Below, piece by piece: positions 6,367 through 64,000 of a stretch of DNA of 64,000 bases. The notes beneath the pieces were generated by a model, which did not search any database, was not told where the DNA came from, and was given only the letters and a program-made list of their open reading frames with translations. The stretch is from Peptoniphilaceae bacterium. GTDB lineage: Bacteria > Bacillota > Clostridia > Tissierellales > Peptoniphilaceae. Each line of letters opens with the position of its first letter. Within the stretch, counting starts at the first letter, position 1. A program made the translations under genes and the position numbers. The stretch spans positions 1-64,000 of the forward strand of contig JALEKO010000012.1 of NCBI GenBank assembly GCA_022769085.1. The letters are read 5' to 3'.

Positions 6367-7230
6367 CTACACTCTCGGATCCAAAACATCTCTAAGACCA
6401 TCTCCCAGAAAGTTTATGCTCATAACAAAAATTGAAATACATGCTCCAGGAATTACCCATAACCACCACTGATTTTGTATTACAGTAATACTTTTAGCTG
6501 CATTTATAATAGTTCCCCATGTTGCAACATTTGTCGGAACTCCTAATCCTAAAAATGAAAGAACTGTCTCTTGAAGAATAAAGAAAGCTACATTTATTGT
6601 TGTTGCAACTATTATAGGTGATAATGTATTTGGAAGTATATCCTTAAACATTATGCTTGCTGATGGTGCTCCAAATGCTTTTGAAACATCTACATATGTT
6701 TCTTCTCTTATTCTCATTACTTCATTTCTAACTATACGAAAAACTGTCATCCAACCTACAAAACAAAATATTAATATAAGGTTTTTTACTCCTGCACCTA
6801 CAATTGTTGCAAGAAGCATTACCAAAATTGTCATTGGAAAAGCCATTAATATTTCTGATATTCTTACAAGTAATGAATCTATTTTACCTCCAAAATATCC
6901 TGCAATTAGTCCTAAACATGTACCTATTACAGATGTTAAAATTGCAGAAAATATTCCTATCATTATAGAAATTCTTCCACCATATACAAGTCTTGTAAAC
7001 AAATCTCTTCCAAGAGAATCAGTACCTAAAATATGTTCACCACCAGGAAGTTTATTCATGGATGAAAGGTCTGTTAAATTAGGATCATAGCTTGTTATAA
7101 ACGGCGCAAAAATGCTTAAGAAAATATATATAACAACTACAATAAGTCCAAACATAGCAAGCTTATTTGCAGTAAATTTTTTTAAGCTTCTTTTTGCCAT
7201 TGAAGATTTTTTTATTTTATTTTCACTCAT
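6367..7230 (-). CDS. ABC transporter permease (OppC/DppC family), canonical architecture
   Basis: 'HILGTDSLGRDLFTRLVYGGRISI' and EAA loop 'YVDVSKAFGAPSASIMFKDILPN'. Likely start MSENKIKKSS. Confidence 0.93.
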   Translation of the reverse strand: MSENKIKKSSMAKRSLKKFTANKLAMFGLIVVVIYIFLSIFAPFITSYDPNLTDLSSMNKLPGGEHILGTDSLGRDLFTRLVYGGRISIMIGIFSAILTSVIGTCLGLIAGYFGGKIDSLLVRISEILMAFPMTILVMLLATIVGAGVKNLILIFCFVGWMTVFRIVRNEVMRIREETYVDVSKAFGAPSASIMFKDILPNTLSPIIVATTINVAFFILQETVLSFLGLGVPTNVATWGTIINAAKSITVIQNQWWLWVIPGACISIFVMSINFLGDGLRDVLDPRV

Positions 7231-7234
7231 AAAA

Positions 7235-8185
7235 TCACTCCAATCTAATTCTTGGATCAAGAAGTGCTGAAATAACATCTATAAGGAATGATGCTACAAG
7301 AAGCACTGTTGCAAGAACAAGTGTAATCATCATTATTACAGGGTAATCTGAGCTTGAAACACCACTCATTAACTGGCTACCAATTCCTGGCCAATTGAAA
7401 ATAGTTTCAATTACTACAGATCCTCCAATTAAAGCTGGTATTCTAAGCATTATCGTTACAAGTACAGGCCCAAGTGCATTTCTGAAAGCATGTTTTAAAT
7501 ACACTTTCCATTCTGCAATTCCCTTACTTCTTGCTGTTTTTATGTACTCTTTTCCCATTACATCAAGCATTGAATTTCTTGTGTACCTGAAGACTGTAGA
7601 TATAAGTCCAATCGATAGTGCAAAAGCCGGAAGAATTATAGGCTTTATGTTTGCCATTGCTCCATTTCCAAATGGTGCTCTTCCACCAGGAGGAAACCAC
7701 GCTAATTTGAATACAAAAATAACCATAAGAACCATAGCAAAAACAAATTCTGGTATTGACTGACCTACAACCGCAATAATTCTTGTAATATAATCAACTA
7801 TTCCATTTTGATGAACTGCAGCAATTATTCCAAGAACAATTCCCAAAACAGATGAAATTACTAAAGATACAAGTGCAAGTTGAATTGTAGCTGGAAATCT
7901 TTGAGCTAATATATTTGAGATTGCCTCACCAGAAAGAATGCTATATCCGAAATCTCCATGTAAAATTCCAGAAATCCAGTCAATATATTGAATTGGAATA
8001 GGTTTATCAAGACCTAAATCATGTCTTAACGCTTCAATATTTGCTGTATTATTCATAGCATCAGGAGAGATCATGTAATTTATAGGATCAACTGGCATTA
8101 ATTGTAATGCTGAGAATATAAGTATCGATATTACTAATAACATCGGTATCATCATTAGTAATTTTCTCATTATGTATTTAAACAT
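7235..8185 (-). CDS. ABC transporter permease (OppB/DppB family)
   Basis: 'MFKYIMRKLLMMIPMLLVISILIFSALQLMPVDP', EAA loop 'YIKTARSKGIAEWKVYLKHAFRNAL'. Confidence 0.95.
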   Translation of the reverse strand: MFKYIMRKLLMMIPMLLVISILIFSALQLMPVDPINYMISPDAMNNTANIEALRHDLGLDKPIPIQYIDWISGILHGDFGYSILSGEAISNILAQRFPATIQLALVSLVISSVLGIVLGIIAAVHQNGIVDYITRIIAVVGQSIPEFVFAMVLMVIFVFKLAWFPPGGRAPFGNGAMANIKPIILPAFALSIGLISTVFRYTRNSMLDVMGKEYIKTARSKGIAEWKVYLKHAFRNALGPVLVTIMLRIPALIGGSVVIETIFNWPGIGSQLMSGVSSSDYPVIMMITLVLATVLLVASFLIDVISALLDPRIRLE

Positions 8186-51714: not shown

Positions 51715-52622
51715 AATTAATCATAGGAACAAGAGGGTCAAAACTTGCACTTATTCAAACAGAATATATAAAAAATTTAATAAAATCAAAATATGAAAAT
51801 ATAGATATAGAAATAAAAATAATAAAAACAAAGGGCGATATTTTATTAAATAAAAAAATCAAAGATATTGGTGGGAAGGGAATTTTTGTAGAAGAAATAG
51901 AGAAAAATCTTTTAGAAAAAAATATAGATATAGCAGTTCATTCTATGAAAGATATTCCTTCACAAAAAAATTCTAATCTTGAATTTGCACCACCTCCTGT
52001 TGCAGAAGATCCCAGAGATGTACTCGTTTCTAATAAAAAAATAAGTTCTTTAAATGATATTAGGGGTTTAAAAATAGGAAGTGGTTCTTTAAGAAGAGTT
52101 ACACAAATAAAAAAGTTAATCGACGTAAATACAGTAGATATAAGAGGAAATATTGATACAAGAATTTCAAAAGTTGATAATAATGAAGTAGATGGCGTTA
52201 TTTTAGCTTATTCAGGTTTAAAACGAGCTAATTTAACAGAAAAAATTTCATATATATTTGACCCTTTAGAAATTATTCCGGCTCCATGTCAAGGAATTCT
52301 TGCAATTGAATATAGAAAAGATGATTTAAAAATAAAAAAAATACTTGAAAATATATCTGATAAAAAAACAACCTTCAGAGCAAATTTGGAAAGAAAGTTT
52401 CAATGTGAAATTGATTCTGATTGTAAAAAGCCAGTAGGAATATACATAAATTTAGAAAATAACTTAGAAGAAAAAATAAAAGTAACAGCATTTTACGGCA
52501 AAGAAGATGGTTCATTTACAATACGAAAAACAATTGAAACGGACAAAAAAAATGCATTTAAAGATATTGAAAAACTTGCAAAATATTTAAAGGAGAAAGT
52601 AAATGAAAAAGGGAATTGTTAA
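51711..52622 (+). CDS. hemC: Porphobilinogen deaminase
   Basis: 'LIIGTRGSKLALIQTEYIKNLI', 'KDIGGKGIFVEEIEKNLLEKNIDIAVHSMKDIP'. Confidence 0.96.
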   Translation: MKLIIGTRGSKLALIQTEYIKNLIKSKYENIDIEIKIIKTKGDILLNKKIKDIGGKGIFVEEIEKNLLEKNIDIAVHSMKDIPSQKNSNLEFAPPPVAEDPRDVLVSNKKISSLNDIRGLKIGSGSLRRVTQIKKLIDVNTVDIRGNIDTRISKVDNNEVDGVILAYSGLKRANLTEKISYIFDPLEIIPAPCQGILAIEYRKDDLKIKKILENISDKKTTFRANLERKFQCEIDSDCKKPVGIYINLENNLEEKIKVTAFYGKEDGSFTIRKTIETDKKNAFKDIEKLAKYLKEKVNEKGNC

Positions 52623-54078
52623 ATTAGTAGGGGCAGGGATTGGTCCAAAAGATAATTTAACTATAAAAGCATATAATGCCATCAATGAATGCGATGTTTT
52701 AATCTATGATAGACTTTTAAACAGTGAAATTTATGAAAATTTGCTTGATAGGAAAGAATGCTATTATGTTGGAAAAACTATGGGGAATCATTCAATGGAT
52801 CAAAAAAAAATTGAAAAACTCATGGTAGAAAAAGCAAAAGAAGGGAAAAATGTAGTTAGACTTAAAGGTGGAGATCCATATGTTTTTGCAAGGGGAGGTG
52901 AAGAGGCAAAATTTTTATACGAAAATAATGTGGATTTTGAAGTTGTCCCAGGAATAACATCTGGAATTGCTGCATTGACTTATGCAGGAATTCCTGCAAC
53001 AATAAGAAAAAAGGTTGAGTCATTAACATTTATTACAGGGCATAAAGAAAAAGATAAAGAAAGTGATTTTAGTAAATATGCAAAATTAAAAGGTACACTT
53101 GTTTTTTATATGGCTCTTAAAAATATAAAAAAAATATTTCAAGATCTACTTAAAGGTGGAATTGATGAAAATATGCCGTGTGCAGTAATTTATAATGGTG
53201 GATACCCTAATCAGGAAGTTTTAATTTCAACTGTAAAAGAACTAAGTTATAAAGATATTGAATATAAATCCCCTGCAATACTAGTTGTTGGAGAAGTTGT
53301 AAAATATAGAAATAAATTTAATTTTTATGAAAAATTACCTCTATTTAATAAAAAAATAGCAGTAACAAGATCAAAAGAACAGACAAAAGATTTAAGCTAT
53401 ATTTTAGAAAATAAAGGAGCATCTGTAATTGAACTTCCTTCAATAGAGATAAAACCTGTAAATGAAAATATTCTTAAAAAATTAATTTTAAATAACAATT
53501 ATACTCATATAATTTTTCATTCTGCAAATACAGTTAAAATTTTTATAAATGAATTATTTAAATTCGCAGATATCAGAAAACTTAATGGAGTTAAAATTTG
53601 CTGTGTTGGGAAAAAAACAGCAAAAGTTTTTAAACAATATGGAATCATTGCAGACATCGTTCCAGATAAATATCTTGGTGAAGAACTTTATGATTTAATA
53701 AAAAATGATAAAGAAACTAAAACAAAAAAAATACTTTTTCCACATTCATCATTAAGTGATGAAACTTTAGTAGATAAATATAAAGAAAATTTTGATGTAG
53801 ATGAATTTGTAATTTATGAAAATAATAGACCTAAGAAAATGAATGAATTTGAGGATTTTGACTATATAACATTTACATCATCATCAACAGTTATAAATTT
53901 TATAAAATACTATGGGATTTGTAAATTAAAAGATAAAATTTGTGTAAGCATTGGGCCTACAACAACAAAAACATTACAAAATTATGGAATAAGAAAAATA
54001 ATAGAAGCTAAAAAATCTACAATTGAGGATATTGTGGATGTTATTGAGGAGAATGTATATGAGAATGAGAAGAATTAG
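52603..54078 (+). CDS. Uroporphyrinogen-III C-methyltransferase / uroporphyrinogen-III synthase fusion
   Basis: SUMT half 'VKLVGAGIGPKDNLTIKAYNAI...RLKGGDPYVFARGGEEA...GITSGIAALTYAGIPATIR' plus HemD half 'KKIAVTRSKEQTKDLSYIL...FTSSSTVINF'. Confidence 0.94.
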   Translation: MKKGIVKLVGAGIGPKDNLTIKAYNAINECDVLIYDRLLNSEIYENLLDRKECYYVGKTMGNHSMDQKKIEKLMVEKAKEGKNVVRLKGGDPYVFARGGEEAKFLYENNVDFEVVPGITSGIAALTYAGIPATIRKKVESLTFITGHKEKDKESDFSKYAKLKGTLVFYMALKNIKKIFQDLLKGGIDENMPCAVIYNGGYPNQEVLISTVKELSYKDIEYKSPAILVVGEVVKYRNKFNFYEKLPLFNKKIAVTRSKEQTKDLSYILENKGASVIELPSIEIKPVNENILKKLILNNNYTHIIFHSANTVKIFINELFKFADIRKLNGVKICCVGKKTAKVFKQYGIIADIVPDKYLGEELYDLIKNDKETKTKKILFPHSSLSDETLVDKYKENFDVDEFVIYENNRPKKMNEFEDFDYITFTSSSTVINFIKYYGICKLKDKICVSIGPTTTKTLQNYGIRKIIEAKKSTIEDIVDVIEENVYENEKN

Positions 54079-55027
54079 AAATAATAAAGTAATGAGAGAT
54101 ATGGTTAAAGAAACAACTTTAAGCATAAGTGATTTAATATATCCACTTTTTGTGGTTGAAGGTGAAAATATAAAAGAAGAAATAAAATCAATGCCTAATA
54201 CATTTCATTTTTCAGTTGATATGCTTAAAGATGAAATAGAAGAAATTTCAAAACTAAATATTCCTGCTGTAATACTATTTGGAATACCTTCACATAAAGA
54301 TTCTAAAGGTAGTGAGGCATACAAAGAAGATGGGATAATTCAAAAAGCAATAAAAAAAATAAAAGAAATAAATAAAGATTTAATAGTAATTACAGATGTA
54401 TGTATGTGTGAATATACAGAAAGCGGGCATTGTGGAATAATTGATAATTTTGGAAATGTAGATAATGACACATCTATTAAATATATTGCAAAAATTGCAC
54501 TCTCTCATGCAAAAGCAGGATGTGATATTGTAGCGCCTTCTGATATGATGGATTTTAGAGTTGGTGAAATAAGAAAAACACTTGATGAAAATGGATTTAA
54601 AAATGTTCCGATAATGAGTTATGCTGCAAAATATGCATCAAATTTTTATGGACCTTTTAGAGAAGCTGCAGATTCAAAACCAAAATTTGGAGATAGGAAA
54701 TCTTATCAAATGGATTATCATAACAGTGATGAGGCATTAAAAGAAGTAAAACTAGATTTAGAAGAAGATAGTGATTTTATAATTGTAAAACCTGCAATGA
54801 GTTATCTTGATATAGTAAGAAGAGTAAAAGAAAATTTTAATACAAATATTGTAGCATATCAAGTTAGCGGAGAATACTCAATGATATTAAATGCAGTAAA
54901 AAATAATCTTGTATCAGAAGAAATAATATATGAAACATTAATTTCTATAAAAAGAGCAGGAGCAAAAAATATAATAACATATTTTGCAAAAGATATTGCA
55001 AGAAAAATAAAAGAAGGACAAATATGA
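54059..55027 (+). CDS. hemB: Porphobilinogen synthase (delta-aminolevulinic acid dehydratase)
   Basis: 'ISDLIYPLFVVEGENIKEEIKSMP', 'DVCMCEYTESGHCGII', 'IVAPSDMMD', 'KPAMSYLDIVRRVK'; start revised downstream. Confidence 0.96.
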   Translation: MRMRRIRNNKVMRDMVKETTLSISDLIYPLFVVEGENIKEEIKSMPNTFHFSVDMLKDEIEEISKLNIPAVILFGIPSHKDSKGSEAYKEDGIIQKAIKKIKEINKDLIVITDVCMCEYTESGHCGIIDNFGNVDNDTSIKYIAKIALSHAKAGCDIVAPSDMMDFRVGEIRKTLDENGFKNVPIMSYAAKYASNFYGPFREAADSKPKFGDRKSYQMDYHNSDEALKEVKLDLEEDSDFIIVKPAMSYLDIVRRVKENFNTNIVAYQVSGEYSMILNAVKNNLVSEEIIYETLISIKRAGAKNIITYFAKDIARKIKEGQI

Positions 55028-56295
55028 ATTTATTTACAAGGGCAAAAAAAGTAATCCCTGGTGGGGTTAATTCACCTGTTAGAGCATTTGGTTCTGTTAA
55101 TATGGATCCAATTTTTATAAAAAAAGCAAAAGGACCATTTCTATATGATGTAAACTCAAATAAATATATAGATTATATAAATTCATGGGGGCCTGTTATA
55201 CTAGGTCATGGTAAAAAAGATTTAATTGAAAAAGCAAAAAAATATTTAGAAGACGGAATAACCTTTGGTCTTGCAACAGAAGAAGAAGTAAAACTTGCAC
55301 AATTAATTACAAATGCAACAAATACAGATATGATAAGATTTGTAAATTCTGGAACAGAAGCTACAATGAGTGCTATAAGACTTGCCAGAGGATTTACAAA
55401 AAGAAATAAAATTCTTAAATTTGAAGGTTGCTATCATGGCCATTCTGATTCACTTTTAGTAAAAAGTGGTTCTGGAGCACTTACATTTAATAGTCCTACA
55501 TCTGAAGGGGTTTCACGTGAAACAATTATGCATACAATTGTAGCAAGATATAATGATATAAATGATGTAAAAGAAAAAATAGAAGAATATAAAAATGATA
55601 TAGCTTGTGTAATAATAGAACCTGTTGCTGCAAATATGGGAGTTGTCGTTCCAGATGAAAGCTTTATAAAAGATTTAAGAAAAATTACCGAAGAAAATAA
55701 AATACTTTTAATATTTGATGAAGTTATTACAGGATTTAGAATTAGATTTGGTTCTGTTGATAAACTTTTTAATGTAAAAGCTGATTTATATTGCTTTGGA
55801 AAAATAATTGGAGGGGGCTTGCCAGTTGGGGCATTTGCTGGAAGAAGAGAAATAATGCAAAAACTTACACCTCTTGGTGGAGTATATCAAGCAGGTACAT
55901 TATCTGGAAATCCGCTTGCAATGAAAATGGGTTATGATGTTTTAACATATTTAAAAGACCATCAAGAAATTTATGATAAATTAGATAAAAATGCAGAAAA
56001 ATTAGCTTTGGGATTTGAAAAAAATATAAAAGAACTTGGTATAAATGCAAAGGTGTCAAAATTCCATTCAATATTAAGTTTATTTTTTGGAATTGATTCT
56101 GAAATAAAATCTTATGATGATGTAAAAAATGCAGATAACAATATGTTTGAAAAATATTTTAAATCAATGTTAAAATCAGGATTTATGTTTGCACCATCAC
56201 AATATGAGGCAATTTTTCTTTCAGATGCAATAGATGATTCTATAATAGAAGAAACAATTAGAAAAAATAGAGAAGCTTTAAAAAGTATTAATTAA
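55024..56295 (+). CDS. hemL: Glutamate-1-semialdehyde 2,1-aminomutase
   Basis: 'VIPGGVNSPVRAFG', 'FVNSGTEATMSAIRLARG', 'FDEVITGFRIR', 'GKIIGGGLPVGAFAGRREIM'. Confidence 0.97.
   Translation: MNLFTRAKKVIPGGVNSPVRAFGSVNMDPIFIKKAKGPFLYDVNSNKYIDYINSWGPVILGHGKKDLIEKAKKYLEDGITFGLATEEEVKLAQLITNATNTDMIRFVNSGTEATMSAIRLARGFTKRNKILKFEGCYHGHSDSLLVKSGSGALTFNSPTSEGVSRETIMHTIVARYNDINDVKEKIEEYKNDIACVIIEPVAANMGVVVPDESFIKDLRKITEENKILLIFDEVITGFRIRFGSVDKLFNVKADLYCFGKIIGGGLPVGAFAGRREIMQKLTPLGGVYQAGTLSGNPLAMKMGYDVLTYLKDHQEIYDKLDKNAEKLALGFEKNIKELGINAKVSKFHSILSLFFGIDSEIKSYDDVKNADNNMFEKYFKSMLKSGFMFAPSQYEAIFLSDAIDDSIIEETIRKNREALKSIN
55509..55524. promoter_or_regulatory. parS: parS centromere site (1 terminal mismatch) inside hemL
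   Basis: GGTTTCACGTGAAACA, encodes ..GVSRETI... Confidence 0.85.
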
Positions 56296-59178: not shown

Positions 59179-61320
59179 ATGAAAAGAAAACTAACTGTCG
59201 CACTAGCAACACTTGCGATGAGTTTTACGCTTGTAGCATGTGGTCAGTCAAATGACACAGCGACAAACTCAAATGCAAAAGTTGCAAGTAATGCTAATAG
59301 TGCAAGTAACGTTGCAGTAACAGAAAACGCAACAAGTAATGTTGAGGACTTTCAAGCTCAAACAGATGACAAAACACTAGTTGTTGGTCTTGATAGTATT
59401 GGTGGAGATTTTATTGGTGGATTTACAAACACTGTAAATGATAATTATGTAAGATATATGTTAGGAACTTATGGTTTTTCTGGATATAATACTGTTTATC
59501 AGGATAAAGACGGAGAATATAAGTTTAACATGAATATTCTTACAGAAGAGCCTGAAATAAAAGAAAATGACGATAAATCAAAAACATATACTTTTAAACT
59601 AAATCCAGATATGAAATGGTCAGATGGAGAACCTATTACTTCAAAAGACTATATATTTGGCTCAATTTTAGTAACAGATTCAAAATATATTCCAATTACA
59701 GGTTCAAGTGATATTGGATCTGAAAGTATAAAAGGATATGAAGCATTCCATAAAGGTGAAACAAATGTATTACAAGGAATAAAATATATCGATGACAATA
59801 CATTTTCATTTACAATTGATTCAAGTTTCCTTCCATATTATTATGAAATAACACTTGCAGGATGGGGACCAACACCAATGCATGCACTTGCACCAAATAT
59901 GGATTTAACACCAGAAGGAAATGGTCTTGTTGCAAAAGAAGGGTACAAACTTTCAGATGATGATAAGGCAAGTTTAACAAAACTTTTAGATTCAAGACTT
60001 GATGATGTTAAAAAAGAACTTGAAGAAGCAAAAGCAAGTGAAGATTTTGCAAGTTCAGATCAAAAAGAATATGACACACAAATAGCAGATATTGAAAAAC
60101 AAAAAGCTGATGTAGAATCTGGAAATGCAGATGCAACAGATATTTTATATCAAGAAGCAGCTTTAAAATATACACAAGATTATAGATTAAAACCACAGCC
60201 AACAGCTGGACAATATAAATTTGTAAGTTATGAAAATAACATGGTTAAACTTGAGCTTGATGAAAACTTCTTAGGAAATCAAGATGGCAAGAAAGCAACT
60301 ATTCCTAATGTAATTTTCCAAAGAATAAATCCAGCAATAGCTACAGATTTAATTGAAAACGGCGATATAGACGTTTATGAACAAGAAATGGACGGAGCCA
60401 AAATTGAAAAAATGACTCAAAAAGCCGATAAAGGAAAATTACAAACATACACATTTAACAGAAATGGATATGGAAAACTTGTATTTATTACAGATAGAAG
60501 TGCTACACAATACAAAGAAGTAAGACAAGCCGTAGCATTCTTACTTGATAGAGATTCATTCGTACAGGATTTTGCAGGAGGATATGCAACTGTAACTGAT
60601 GGAGAATATGGTTTAAGTCAGTGGATGTATGAAGAAAGAGGAGCAGACATCGAAGGAAAACTTGTTCATTATACATTAAATTTAGATGAAGCAAACAAGA
60701 GACTTGATGAAAGCCCATATAAATTTGAAAAAGATGGAAAAACTCCTTGGAACTATGACAAAGCACAAGAATTATATAACAAAGATAGCAAAGGCTTTGA
60801 TTATTACAGATATAACGATAAAGGCGAAAAACTTCAGGTAAATCAACAGGGATCACCTGATAGTGAAATTACAACTTTAATTAATAACCAATTACCTGAA
60901 AATGCTAAACAAGTTGGAATGGAATACAACGTAAAAGCTGTAGATTTCTCAACTATGATGCAGAATTTGTATTTCCCAAAAGATGATGCTGAATATACAG
61001 CATTTAACATGGGTTCAACTTTTGGAGATCCATATGATCCATGGGGACAATACAATACAAAAGGTAACGACAACACTACAAAAACAAACGACCCAGCTGA
61101 AGATGAACTTACAGAGAAATTTAGACATGTTGATCCTTCAGATAAAGAAAAATATTTGGATTATTGGGAAGAACATCAATTATGGTTTAACGATTATCTT
61201 CCAGAAATCCCACTATATTCAAATATTATCTATTCTGAAACTTCAAACAGAGTTGAAGGATTCGAGACAAGCCCTTATTGGGGAGTTGACGATGCAATCT
61301 TTACGATGACTCTAAAATAA
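59179..61320 (+). CDS. Oligopeptide-type solute-binding lipoprotein (SBP family 5) with helical insertion
   Basis: Lipobox 'LATLAMSFTLVACGQ', 'KNDDKSKTYTFKLNPDMKWSDGEPITSKDYIFG'-type SBP_bac_5 core; Glu/Lys/Ala-rich insert about 59947-60177. Confidence 0.93.
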   Translation: MKRKLTVALATLAMSFTLVACGQSNDTATNSNAKVASNANSASNVAVTENATSNVEDFQAQTDDKTLVVGLDSIGGDFIGGFTNTVNDNYVRYMLGTYGFSGYNTVYQDKDGEYKFNMNILTEEPEIKENDDKSKTYTFKLNPDMKWSDGEPITSKDYIFGSILVTDSKYIPITGSSDIGSESIKGYEAFHKGETNVLQGIKYIDDNTFSFTIDSSFLPYYYEITLAGWGPTPMHALAPNMDLTPEGNGLVAKEGYKLSDDDKASLTKLLDSRLDDVKKELEEAKASEDFASSDQKEYDTQIADIEKQKADVESGNADATDILYQEAALKYTQDYRLKPQPTAGQYKFVSYENNMVKLELDENFLGNQDGKKATIPNVIFQRINPAIATDLIENGDIDVYEQEMDGAKIEKMTQKADKGKLQTYTFNRNGYGKLVFITDRSATQYKEVRQAVAFLLDRDSFVQDFAGGYATVTDGEYGLSQWMYEERGADIEGKLVHYTLNLDEANKRLDESPYKFEKDGKTPWNYDKAQELYNKDSKGFDYYRYNDKGEKLQVNQQGSPDSEITTLINNQLPENAKQVGMEYNVKAVDFSTMMQNLYFPKDDAEYTAFNMGSTFGDPYDPWGQYNTKGNDNTTKTNDPAEDELTEKFRHVDPSDKEKYLDYWEEHQLWFNDYLPEIPLYSNIIYSETSNRVEGFETSPYWGVDDAIFTMTLK

Positions 61321-61385: not shown

Positions 61386-62354
61386 ATGTTAAAATATACA
61401 TTAAAAAGAATCGTAAATTTAATACCTGTTCTTTTCATAATCTCAGTTTTGGTATTTTTTCTAATGAAAGCAATGCCAGGAGACCCTGTAGTACTTATGA
61501 TGCCAAGAGGTGGGGGAAAACAGATGACACAGGAAGAGTTTGATAAACTTTACGATACACTTTCTGAAAAATATGGTTTTGATAAATCAATTCCTGAACA
61601 ATATGTAAGATGGCTTGGAAAGACTTTGAAAGGTGATTTTGGAGATAGTATGCAAACTAGAACACCTGTAAGAAAGTTTTTGTCTGAACCGTTAAAAAAT
61701 ACAATTATTTTAAATTTAGGAGCTACGGTAATTTCGTTTGTTCTTTCTATTTTGATAGGGATAAGGTCTGCGGTGAAAAAGGGAGGATTTTTTGATAAAT
61801 TCTTCCAAGTATTTACACTTGTGGGAATTTCTCTTCCTACATTTTTTATCGGACTTTTATTAATTTATATAGTAGCTTTTAAATTGAAATGGTTGCCTGC
61901 AAATGGAATGCCAAGAGATAATAGTTTTTTGCAATGGATTAGATATTTAATACTTCCTACAATAACTTTAACTGTAGGCTCTCTTGCATCACTTTCAAGA
62001 TATGTAAGAAGTTCAATGCTTGATGCACTTAATGAAGACTATATAAGAACTGCACGTGCAAAGGGATTAAAAGAAAAAACTGTAATTTACTCACATGCAT
62101 TTAGAAATGCACTTATTCCAGTTGTCACGGCAATGGCATGGTCTATAATTGGAATGTTTTCAGGTTCTGCTATAACAGAAAGGGTATTTGCATATAAAGG
62201 AATAGGAAACGAACTTATTACAGCCGTTATTGCAACAGATTATAACGTCGTTTTGGCTCTATCTATGTTTTATGCACTTTTAACTTTACTAGGAAATCTT
62301 CTTATGGATATAACATATGCACTTGTTGATCCTAGGGTAAAGCTGGAGGCTTAA
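61386..62354 (+). CDS. Oligopeptide-type ABC permease (OppB family)
   Basis: 'MLKYTLKRIVNLIPVLFIISVLVFFLMKAMPGDPV', EAA loop 'YIRTARAKGLKEKTVIYSHAFRNALIPVV'. Confidence 0.95.
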   Translation: MLKYTLKRIVNLIPVLFIISVLVFFLMKAMPGDPVVLMMPRGGGKQMTQEEFDKLYDTLSEKYGFDKSIPEQYVRWLGKTLKGDFGDSMQTRTPVRKFLSEPLKNTIILNLGATVISFVLSILIGIRSAVKKGGFFDKFFQVFTLVGISLPTFFIGLLLIYIVAFKLKWLPANGMPRDNSFLQWIRYLILPTITLTVGSLASLSRYVRSSMLDALNEDYIRTARAKGLKEKTVIYSHAFRNALIPVVTAMAWSIIGMFSGSAITERVFAYKGIGNELITAVIATDYNVVLALSMFYALLTLLGNLLMDITYALVDPRVKLEA

Positions 62355-62355
62355 T

Positions 62356-64000
62356 ATGAAAAAACACAATTTAATACATTATTTAAAATTGTATTTCAAA
62401 AGAATACTTCAAGGGTTTACTTTTGGTGCATCTAGTGGTGAGGAAATTAATTTAAATAATGAAGAGGTTATTGAAAAAGAAGAAGCCATTGAGTCTCCAG
62501 GAAAAGTTGCATTAAAAAATTTCTTTAGCAATCCTTTGGGTGTAATAGGTCTTGTTTTGTTTTTGTCTATAATTATAACTATTTTTATAGGATCAAGATT
62601 ATTTAAATTTGATAGCAATTATTCTCAAGGAACTATGAAAAATATTTCACCTGGATATGGTTATATGAATTATCCAAAAGCACTTAAAGATGAAGGCGTA
62701 TCTGAAATTTCTGTCGGAATTACATACTCTATAGGTCTTTCAAATGAAGGGAATTTATATCTATGGGGAAAAAATACCGAAGATGATATTTTGGATATAC
62801 CAAAAGATATACAAGAAAAAATAAAAGATAAGAAAATTTCTCATGTTGCATCTGGTGATAGACATGTAATTATTACAACAGAAGATAATGAATTTTATGG
62901 CTGGGGTGATAAAGCATTCCAACAGACATCTTTAACTGGTGACAAACAACAAATAATAAAAAATGAAAAAGTAAAAAAACTTGGTGCTGGAACACAGTAT
63001 TCTGTAATTTTAACAGAAAAGGGAAATCTTATCATTTGGGGTTCTACTTTAAATACAAAATTAAATATGATACCAAAAGAAATTGAAGGTAAAGTAGTAG
63101 ATTTTGTAGCATCAAATACAAATGTAATAGTAGTTCTTGATGATGGTTCAATTAGACTGTTAGGTGCAAGAGGAACTGAACTAGACACACAAATGCCAAG
63201 TGAACTTAAAGATGGTTCTATAAAAGTTAAAAAAGTAGCCATGACTCAGACATCTGCAATAGCATTAGATGAAAATGGAAAAATATATACATGGGGTCCA
63301 AAAAGAGAAGCTCTTACAGGAGAAAGTGTGCCTGAAATAAATTCAAAAATTGTTGATGTTGCAGGTGGAAATAGCCATTTTGTTGTAGTAGATGAAAATG
63401 GAAAACTTTATGCTTGGGGAAAAGATAAATATAAAGAAACTAACACACCAAAGAGTGATGCAAAATACGAAAAAGTCTTTGCAGGATACTATAACAACTA
63501 TGCAATAGAAAAAGAAGGAGAAATTGATACTTGGGGATTAAACGGATTTTTATTTGGCTCTGATGAACAAGGACGTGATTTATTTACTAGACTTGTTTAC
63601 GGTGGACAAATGACTATGATAATCTCTTTGGTTTCAACTTTACTTAGCATAGTTTTAGGTGTTGTAATAGGAATGATATCAGGTTTTTCAGGTGGAAAAA
63701 TTGATAATCTTCTTATGAGATTTTCTGAAATTATAGCATCTTTCCCATTTTATCCTCTTATAATAACTCTTTCAGGGTTACTTCCTGTAAATGTAAGCCA
63801 AAATACAAGGCTTATGATGATAATGGTTATTTTGGGAGTTTTAGGATGGACTGGAATAGCAAGACTTGTAAGAGGTCAAATATTAGCTGAAAGAGAAAGA
63901 GATTATGTAACGGCAGCACGTGCTTTGGGAATTTCTACAAATTCAATACTTAAAAATCACATTTTCCCAAGTGTGCTTTCACTTGTAATAGTTGAAGCAA
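62356..64000 (+). CDS. OppC-family ABC permease with inserted RCC1-type beta-propeller (3' end beyond window)
   Basis: Continuous frame from ATG 62356: TM1 'PLGVIGLVLFLSIIITIFIGSRLF', then about seven repeats with 'G..YSIGLSNEGNLYLWG'-type cores (62698-63546), then 'FLFGSDEQGRDLFTRLVYGGQMTMI' and EAA loop 'YVTAARALGISTNSILKNHIFPS'. Confidence 0.95.
   Translation, partial: MKKHNLIHYLKLYFKRILQGFTFGASSGEEINLNNEEVIEKEEAIESPGKVALKNFFSNPLGVIGLVLFLSIIITIFIGSRLFKFDSNYSQGTMKNISPGYGYMNYPKALKDEGVSEISVGITYSIGLSNEGNLYLWGKNTEDDILDIPKDIQEKIKDKKISHVASGDRHVIITTEDNEFYGWGDKAFQQTSLTGDKQQIIKNEKVKKLGAGTQYSVILTEKGNLIIWGSTLNTKLNMIPKEIEGKVVDFVASNTNVIVVLDDGSIRLLGARGTELDTQMPSELKDGSIKVKKVAMTQTSAIALDENGKIYTWGPKREALTGESVPEINSKIVDVAGGNSHFVVVDENGKLYAWGKDKYKETNTPKSDAKYEKVFAGYYNNYAIEKEGEIDTWGLNGFLFGSDEQGRDLFTRLVYGGQMTMIISLVSTLLSIVLGVVIGMISGFSGGKIDNLLMRFSEIIASFPFYPLIITLSGLLPVNVSQNTRLMMIMVILGVLGWTGIARLVRGQILAERERDYVTAARALGISTNSILKNHIFPSVLSLVIVEA

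Follow-up and report, generated by a model that had tools for sequence, protein, structure and literature searches.

Among described systems, the pneumococcal Ami permease (AmiACDEF) is a Gram-positive type I peptide importer in which a permease subunit carries a large extracellular domain, the extracellular domains (ECDs) of AmiC having been proposed, from modelling, to act as a clamp on the binding protein (PMC11192437). In Ami, it is the larger, OppB-type subunit (AmiC) that holds the insert, for which no propeller has been described, while the TM1-TM2 loop of the OppC-type subunit AmiD is short (residues 64-99) and was modelled in contact with lobe 2 of the binding protein (PMC11192437). 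A folded extracytoplasmic permease domain that contacts the binding protein is also found in the maltose importer (MalF P2; PMC3150292), but with another fold, in another loop and in a Gram-negative periplasm. The OppBCDF, OppABCD and DppABCDF systems of E. coli and M. tuberculosis share the membrane fold and the ATPase fold of the importer described below (8z21_B, 8z21_D), whereas their OppC has no propeller and their ATPase has no four-helix insertion at the corresponding site. In the locus analysed here, unlike in Ami, OppB is ordinary (322 aa, without insert) and a predicted RCC1 propeller sits in OppC.

The window (the whole stretch of DNA that was analysed, 64,000 nucleotides from a Peptoniphilaceae bacterium) ends inside a gene that a sequence-only reading had described as one unbroken frame, starting at 62356, for an OppC-type permease with seven RCC1 repeats in its first extracellular loop. 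The frame is indeed unbroken in the window and on its continuation in the 155 kb contig (L001 = G000:C15:62001-80000), where it ends 242 bases beyond the window, at the window-equivalent position 64242, and encodes 628 aa. It belongs to an operon with the complete gene set of an Opp/Dpp type I importer (SBP_bac_5 protein, OppB, OppC, OppD and OppF):

59179..61320, + strand: oppA, lipoprotein solute-binding protein (SBP_bac_5, 104 bits), 713 aa, of a subfamily found only with propeller permeases
59929..60171, + strand: expanded segment of OppA, residues 251-331 (between anchors 236-340: 35-109 aa in the propeller clade vs 17-22 in controls)
61386..62354, + strand: oppB permease, ordinary length, without extracellular insert
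62356..64000 in the window, contig end 64242, + strand: oppC with the predicted RCC1 propeller
contig 64248-65249, + strand: oppD, beyond the window, after oppC
contig G000:C15:65239-66810 (L001:3239-4810), + strand: oppF, 523 aa, with a predicted four-helix insertion at residues about 87-240, beyond the window

Upstream in the window, at 52603-56295, reading of the translations points to tetrapyrrole genes (a uroporphyrinogen methyltransferase/synthase fusion, a HemB-like and a HemL-like gene).

Profile searches of the 628-aa OppC placed OppC_N (47-91), BPD_transp_1 (435-624) and RCC1-like profiles above their Pfam gathering thresholds in one and the same chain, with 165 bits for WD40_RLD (RCC1-like domain; gathering 150) and 110 bits for RCC1_2 (gathering 22). 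In the profile search of the genome, PF13540 matched, unlike PF00415, which gave no match. The NCBIfam Opp4C equivalog scored 294 bits on the full-length protein, under its curated cut-off of 350. Within the genome, the insertion is specific to this operon, as had been proposed: RCC1_2 matches across the assembly fall only in this ORF, and the paralogous OppC at 6367-7278 (303 aa) has the ordinary short loop without insert. An AlphaFold2 model built from an alignment of 10 orthologue sequences, in which the propeller blocks mostly reach 77-92 pLDDT, shows membrane helices and seven blades of three detected strands each between TM1 (60-82) and TM2 (from about 409), so that the number, the boundaries and the position of the repeats given by the sequence-only reading all stand:

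62533..62601, + strand: TM1 of OppC, residues 60-82 (AlphaFold2)
62698..62769, + strand: propeller blade 1, residues 115-138 (AlphaFold2, alignment)
62836..62907, + strand: propeller blade 2, residues 161-184 (AlphaFold2, alignment)
62971..63042, + strand: propeller blade 3, residues 206-229 (AlphaFold2, alignment)
63094..63165, + strand: propeller blade 4, residues 247-270, the least conserved blade (AlphaFold2, alignment)
63226..63294, + strand: propeller blade 5, residues 291-313 (AlphaFold2, alignment)
63349..63420, + strand: propeller blade 6, residues 332-355 (AlphaFold2, alignment)
63466..63537, + strand: propeller blade 7, residues 371-394 (AlphaFold2, alignment)
63538..63579, + strand: passage from the propeller into TM2, residues 395-408, LNGFLFGSDEQGRD, where conservation around the insert is highest (alignment)

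When the model was compared with the PDB using Foldseek, the membrane part matched E. coli OppC (8z21_B, E 5e-15) and the propeller matched BLIP-II best (3qi0, E 7e-17, TM 0.85 over target), with UVR8 also among the best matches. The RCC1/BLIP-II propeller group thus shares both the fold and the repeat profile with the OppC insert, but BLIP-II is a free secreted beta-lactamase inhibitor while the propeller found here is embedded in a membrane transporter. Homologue alignment agreed with the model, since the seven blades are present without gaps in 61/61 aligned homologues and the stretch corresponding to residues 83-408 (306-399 residues across homologues) ends in a conserved G[ST]D-x-x-GRD motif, which comes after the short loop in ordinary OppCs. 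Conservation is lowest in the inter-blade loops (0.37, vs 0.45-0.54 for strands and turns), and blades 4-5 are less conserved than the others, although only suggestively so (p about 0.002 for the lowest neighbouring pair). Chance repeats are ruled out by the profile scores and the predicted structure. Altogether, profiles and model indicate that this OppC carries a complete seven-bladed propeller of the RCC1/BLIP-II type between TM1 and TM2. In OppC proteins, the TM1-TM2 loop lies on the outer side of the cell, from which we infer that the propeller is extracellular. If its strands follow the order usual in propellers, the chain would enter and leave at the lower face, towards TM1 and TM2; this face would then rest on the permease and the upper face would point outward.

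The propeller permease is real and not a one-off, as it belongs to a clade with dozens of carriers over the Bacillota. The same OppC architecture was found in more than 60 other assemblies, isolates included, and among 60 relatives the same protein in one open frame came from nine other genera. An assembly chimera, a risk raised along with the original reading, is thereby excluded, because independent genomes carry the same protein. Scanning one genome from each species yielded at least 53 further propeller loci, at least 51 of them with a complete gene, and in a draw of 399 genomes taken evenly from the phylum a propeller OppC was present in 12 (about 3%, the window's own genome included). 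Carriers among the matches listed include Anaerococcus, Erysipelothrix, Peloplasma, Falcatimonas, Butyrivibrio and Clostridium sp. Cult1, together with many Oscillospiraceae, Lachnospiraceae and Clostridia bins and one Treponema bin; most carriers are gut and animal-associated, many coming from gut and rumen samples. The clade is thus spread over the Bacillota, plus one Acholeplasmataceae member (Peloplasma, L035) and one Treponema. This last case is a single propeller operon (L045) in a bin outside the Bacillota, for which horizontal transfer or a binning error are both possible.

Trees were built only from the part of OppC that follows the propeller. The propeller OppCs fell on one side of one branch under a mixture model (SH-aLRT 100), also when 61 propeller rows were in the tree (SH-aLRT 98) and in a careful search (100/100 ultrafast bootstrap/SH-aLRT), and within the clade, these trees showed no member that lacks the propeller. 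Mapped onto the transporter part, the architecture thus defines one clade, and these sequence comparisons and models indicate that the propeller importers arose once and form a subfamily of their own among the oligopeptide (Opp-type) ABC importers. Three other OppCs (L023:1258-3084, L123:168-1922, L132:731-2320) carry a different, beta-rich and repeat-like insert of 200-310 residues at the same site, between TM1 and the H-W-L-G-T-D motif, but without RCC1 or any other Pfam domain. As an unrelated beta-rich domain occupies the same loop in these proteins, this loop accepts domains repeatedly.

The order oppA-B-C-D-F is retained in all propeller loci whose contigs show it, and oppA lies directly 5' in every locus with sufficient upstream sequence (43 loci). 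A comparison of neighbour clusters found no recurring gene beside the propeller operons (regulator, kinase, peptidase or adhesin), the two commonest clusters being antisense ORFs over the opp genes. One propeller operon has two oppA genes (L040:4235-6223 and an adjoining second oppA).

The ATPase subunit OppF is elaborated as well. The distance between Walker A and the Q-loop is at least 148 residues in 45/47 propeller operons (median 231), compared to 50-57 residues in controls, none of the 20 control OppFs from the same order having such an insertion. Among 61 genomes of the order, the ten that have the propeller are also the ones with a long OppF, whose gene lies beside it. In an AlphaFold2 model of OppF (37 sequences; mean pLDDT 89.5), the 150-180 or so residues inserted between Walker A and the Q-loop fold into four long helices (87-119, 123-156, 160-193 and 208-237), while the rest of the protein resembles the E. 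coli OppF ATPase (8z21_D, TM 0.92 over target). The insert diverges very fast, a sequence search of the PDB gave no significant match for it (best E 0.029), and no counterpart of it was found in the ATPases matched by structure. This insertion is a second, cytoplasmic elaboration of the propeller importer. A strict one-to-one rule is nevertheless ruled out: L049 and L058 have a propeller with an OppF that lacks the insertion, and genome G228 retains oppD-oppF with the insertion while oppABC are gone. This last locus (L138, G228:C42:40000-50443), where genes named kbl/tdh-like from their translations replace oppABC, is a natural partial loss of the system. Next to the OppCs with a non-propeller insert, OppF had an ordinary length in the loci examined (L120 and L123). 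The Mycoplasma OppD and OppF (NCBIfam MMSYN1_0167, 0168) are also unusually long Opp ATPases, and the OppD model aligns through the OppF insert, so that long insertions in Opp ATPases may extend beyond the propeller clade; the Mycoplasma OppC model, in contrast, has only 307 positions and therefore no space for a propeller.

The binding protein of these operons also stands apart. OppA measures 597-815 residues in the propeller clade vs 552-635 in controls, and when a clade OppA query was run against the 399-genome draw, its matches were confined to 11 of the 12 genomes that have a propeller OppC and lay on the contig of that gene. These comparisons show that the propeller operon has its own OppA subfamily. 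In 19/44 propeller operons (for example L064:3239-5653, L055:3352-5733 and 17 further loci), OppA is circularly permuted, its C-terminal SBP segment having moved to the N-terminus behind the lipobox, and one change suffices to explain this on the OppC tree. Among ABC binding proteins, TpMglB-2 is likewise circularly permuted in nature (PMC4990184), but it is a glucose-binding Type I protein, whereas the OppA of propeller operons is of the SBP_bac_5 peptide type and is permuted in a subclade only.

What does the propeller do? Since modelling places the ordinary TM1-TM2 loop of OppC-type subunits in contact with lobe 2 of the binding protein, a propeller at this site most likely serves as a docking or clamping platform for the operon's own lipoprotein OppA over the channel, a reading that we hold with moderate confidence. 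The propeller would take the place of the loop through which OppC meets the binding protein and would keep the tethered OppA above the channel, in the way suggested for the AmiC extracellular domains and in the way MalF-P2 holds MalE. Several observations count in its favour: the closest fold, BLIP-II, is a secreted protein binder (PMC9218822); oppA is always directly upstream, and the clade OppA is confined to propeller genomes in the 399-genome draw; genome G228 lacks both the clade OppA and the propeller OppC; OppA shows clade-specific expansions, and no other gene recurs beside the operon.

Pairwise divergences over 37 operons were also compared by partial correlation, controlling for the other subunits. 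The propeller co-diverged with OppA (partial r 0.49, bootstrap 0.35-0.62, shuffle maximum 0.28), as compared to 0.06 with its own TMD and 0.09 with OppB, the known interface between OppB and the OppC TMD reaching 0.74. The signal was strong in the permuted-OppA clade (0.79, 16 loci) but not distinguishable in the 21 non-permuted loci that include the window's lineage (0.17), so that co-divergence is suggestive of a contact rather than proof of it; blade by blade, correlations with OppA were similar throughout (0.17-0.38). Among the roles that the sequence-only reading had offered, docking of the binding protein finds some support here, whereas a gate, a host receptor and a sensor find none. 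Against docking, propeller and OppA are both extracellular and fast-evolving, which can be enough to correlate their divergences; the Gram-positive OppA is already membrane-tethered, so that the need for an extra clamp is not obvious; and the co-occurring OppF insertion is left without explanation.

Other readings are less probable. BtuG is a propeller lipoprotein thought to work with BtuB, and the propeller might similarly be a receptor or lid that catches peptides or proteins and passes them to OppA or the channel. RCC1/BLIP-II propellers do bind proteins (PMC9218822), BtuB and BtuG are described as forming stable complexes at the surface for B12 uptake (PMC10404256), and the poor conservation of the inter-blade loops is as expected for a varying ligand surface; still, OppA is always retained beside the propeller, which argues that the binding protein was not replaced, and we regard this reading as rather unlikely. 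The association of propeller and OppF insertion (10/10 genomes of the order, nearly all operons, no control) would fit a sensory importer, in which a ligand on the propeller would act through OppC on the four-helix insertion to regulate the ATPase or recruit a cytoplasmic partner. We consider this improbable, as no kinase or regulator recurs in the neighbourhood, L049, L058 and G228 uncouple the two domains, and the OppF insert diverges very fast. In a related scheme, which strikes us as quite unlikely, domains co-evolved on both membrane sides, and the propeller would bind a ligand or loaded OppA and control the ATPase via OppC and the OppF insertion; if this were true, a ligand-gated or sensory peptide importer would be a type without earlier description.

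Extracellular exposure, which follows from topology, and the many carriers from gut and rumen samples would also be compatible with a propeller that anchors the transporter to the cell wall, the host or a partner surface molecule, for adhesion or localisation. The Acholeplasmataceae are a group without cell wall, however, and the presence of the propeller in Peloplasma (L035) argues against a peptidoglycan ligand common to all carriers; no adhesin-like neighbours accompany the propeller operons either, and we see little chance for such an anchor. It is very improbable, finally, that the propeller is a neutral addition of little function that a single recombination event fixed and that has since been passed on: a single origin and a propeller that evolves faster than the TMD would agree with this, but seven blades are kept gap-free in 61 sequences and no propeller-less clade member was found.

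We thus favour docking of OppA as the role of the propeller. The parts of this importer were already known, namely the Opp importer, the propeller of the RCC1/BLIP-II type and the permease equipped with a clamp for its binding protein, while their combination was not found in the papers searched. The original claim that a propeller built into a permease had no known description holds for the literature searched, where no paper describing an RCC1 propeller in a permease was found, but AmiC is a precedent for a large extracellular permease domain (PMC11192437). The finding bears on how peptide importers of Gram-positive bacteria keep a tethered binding protein positioned above their channel, a question for which the AmiC clamp is a modelled answer. 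At the contact site of the binding protein, this family offers a compact domain whose fold is known as a soluble protein, and this fold, together with an own OppA and a natural permuted-OppA subclade, makes docking directly testable. More broadly, the same OppC loop has received large folded domains on more than one occasion, and importer subunits on both membrane sides were elaborated together.
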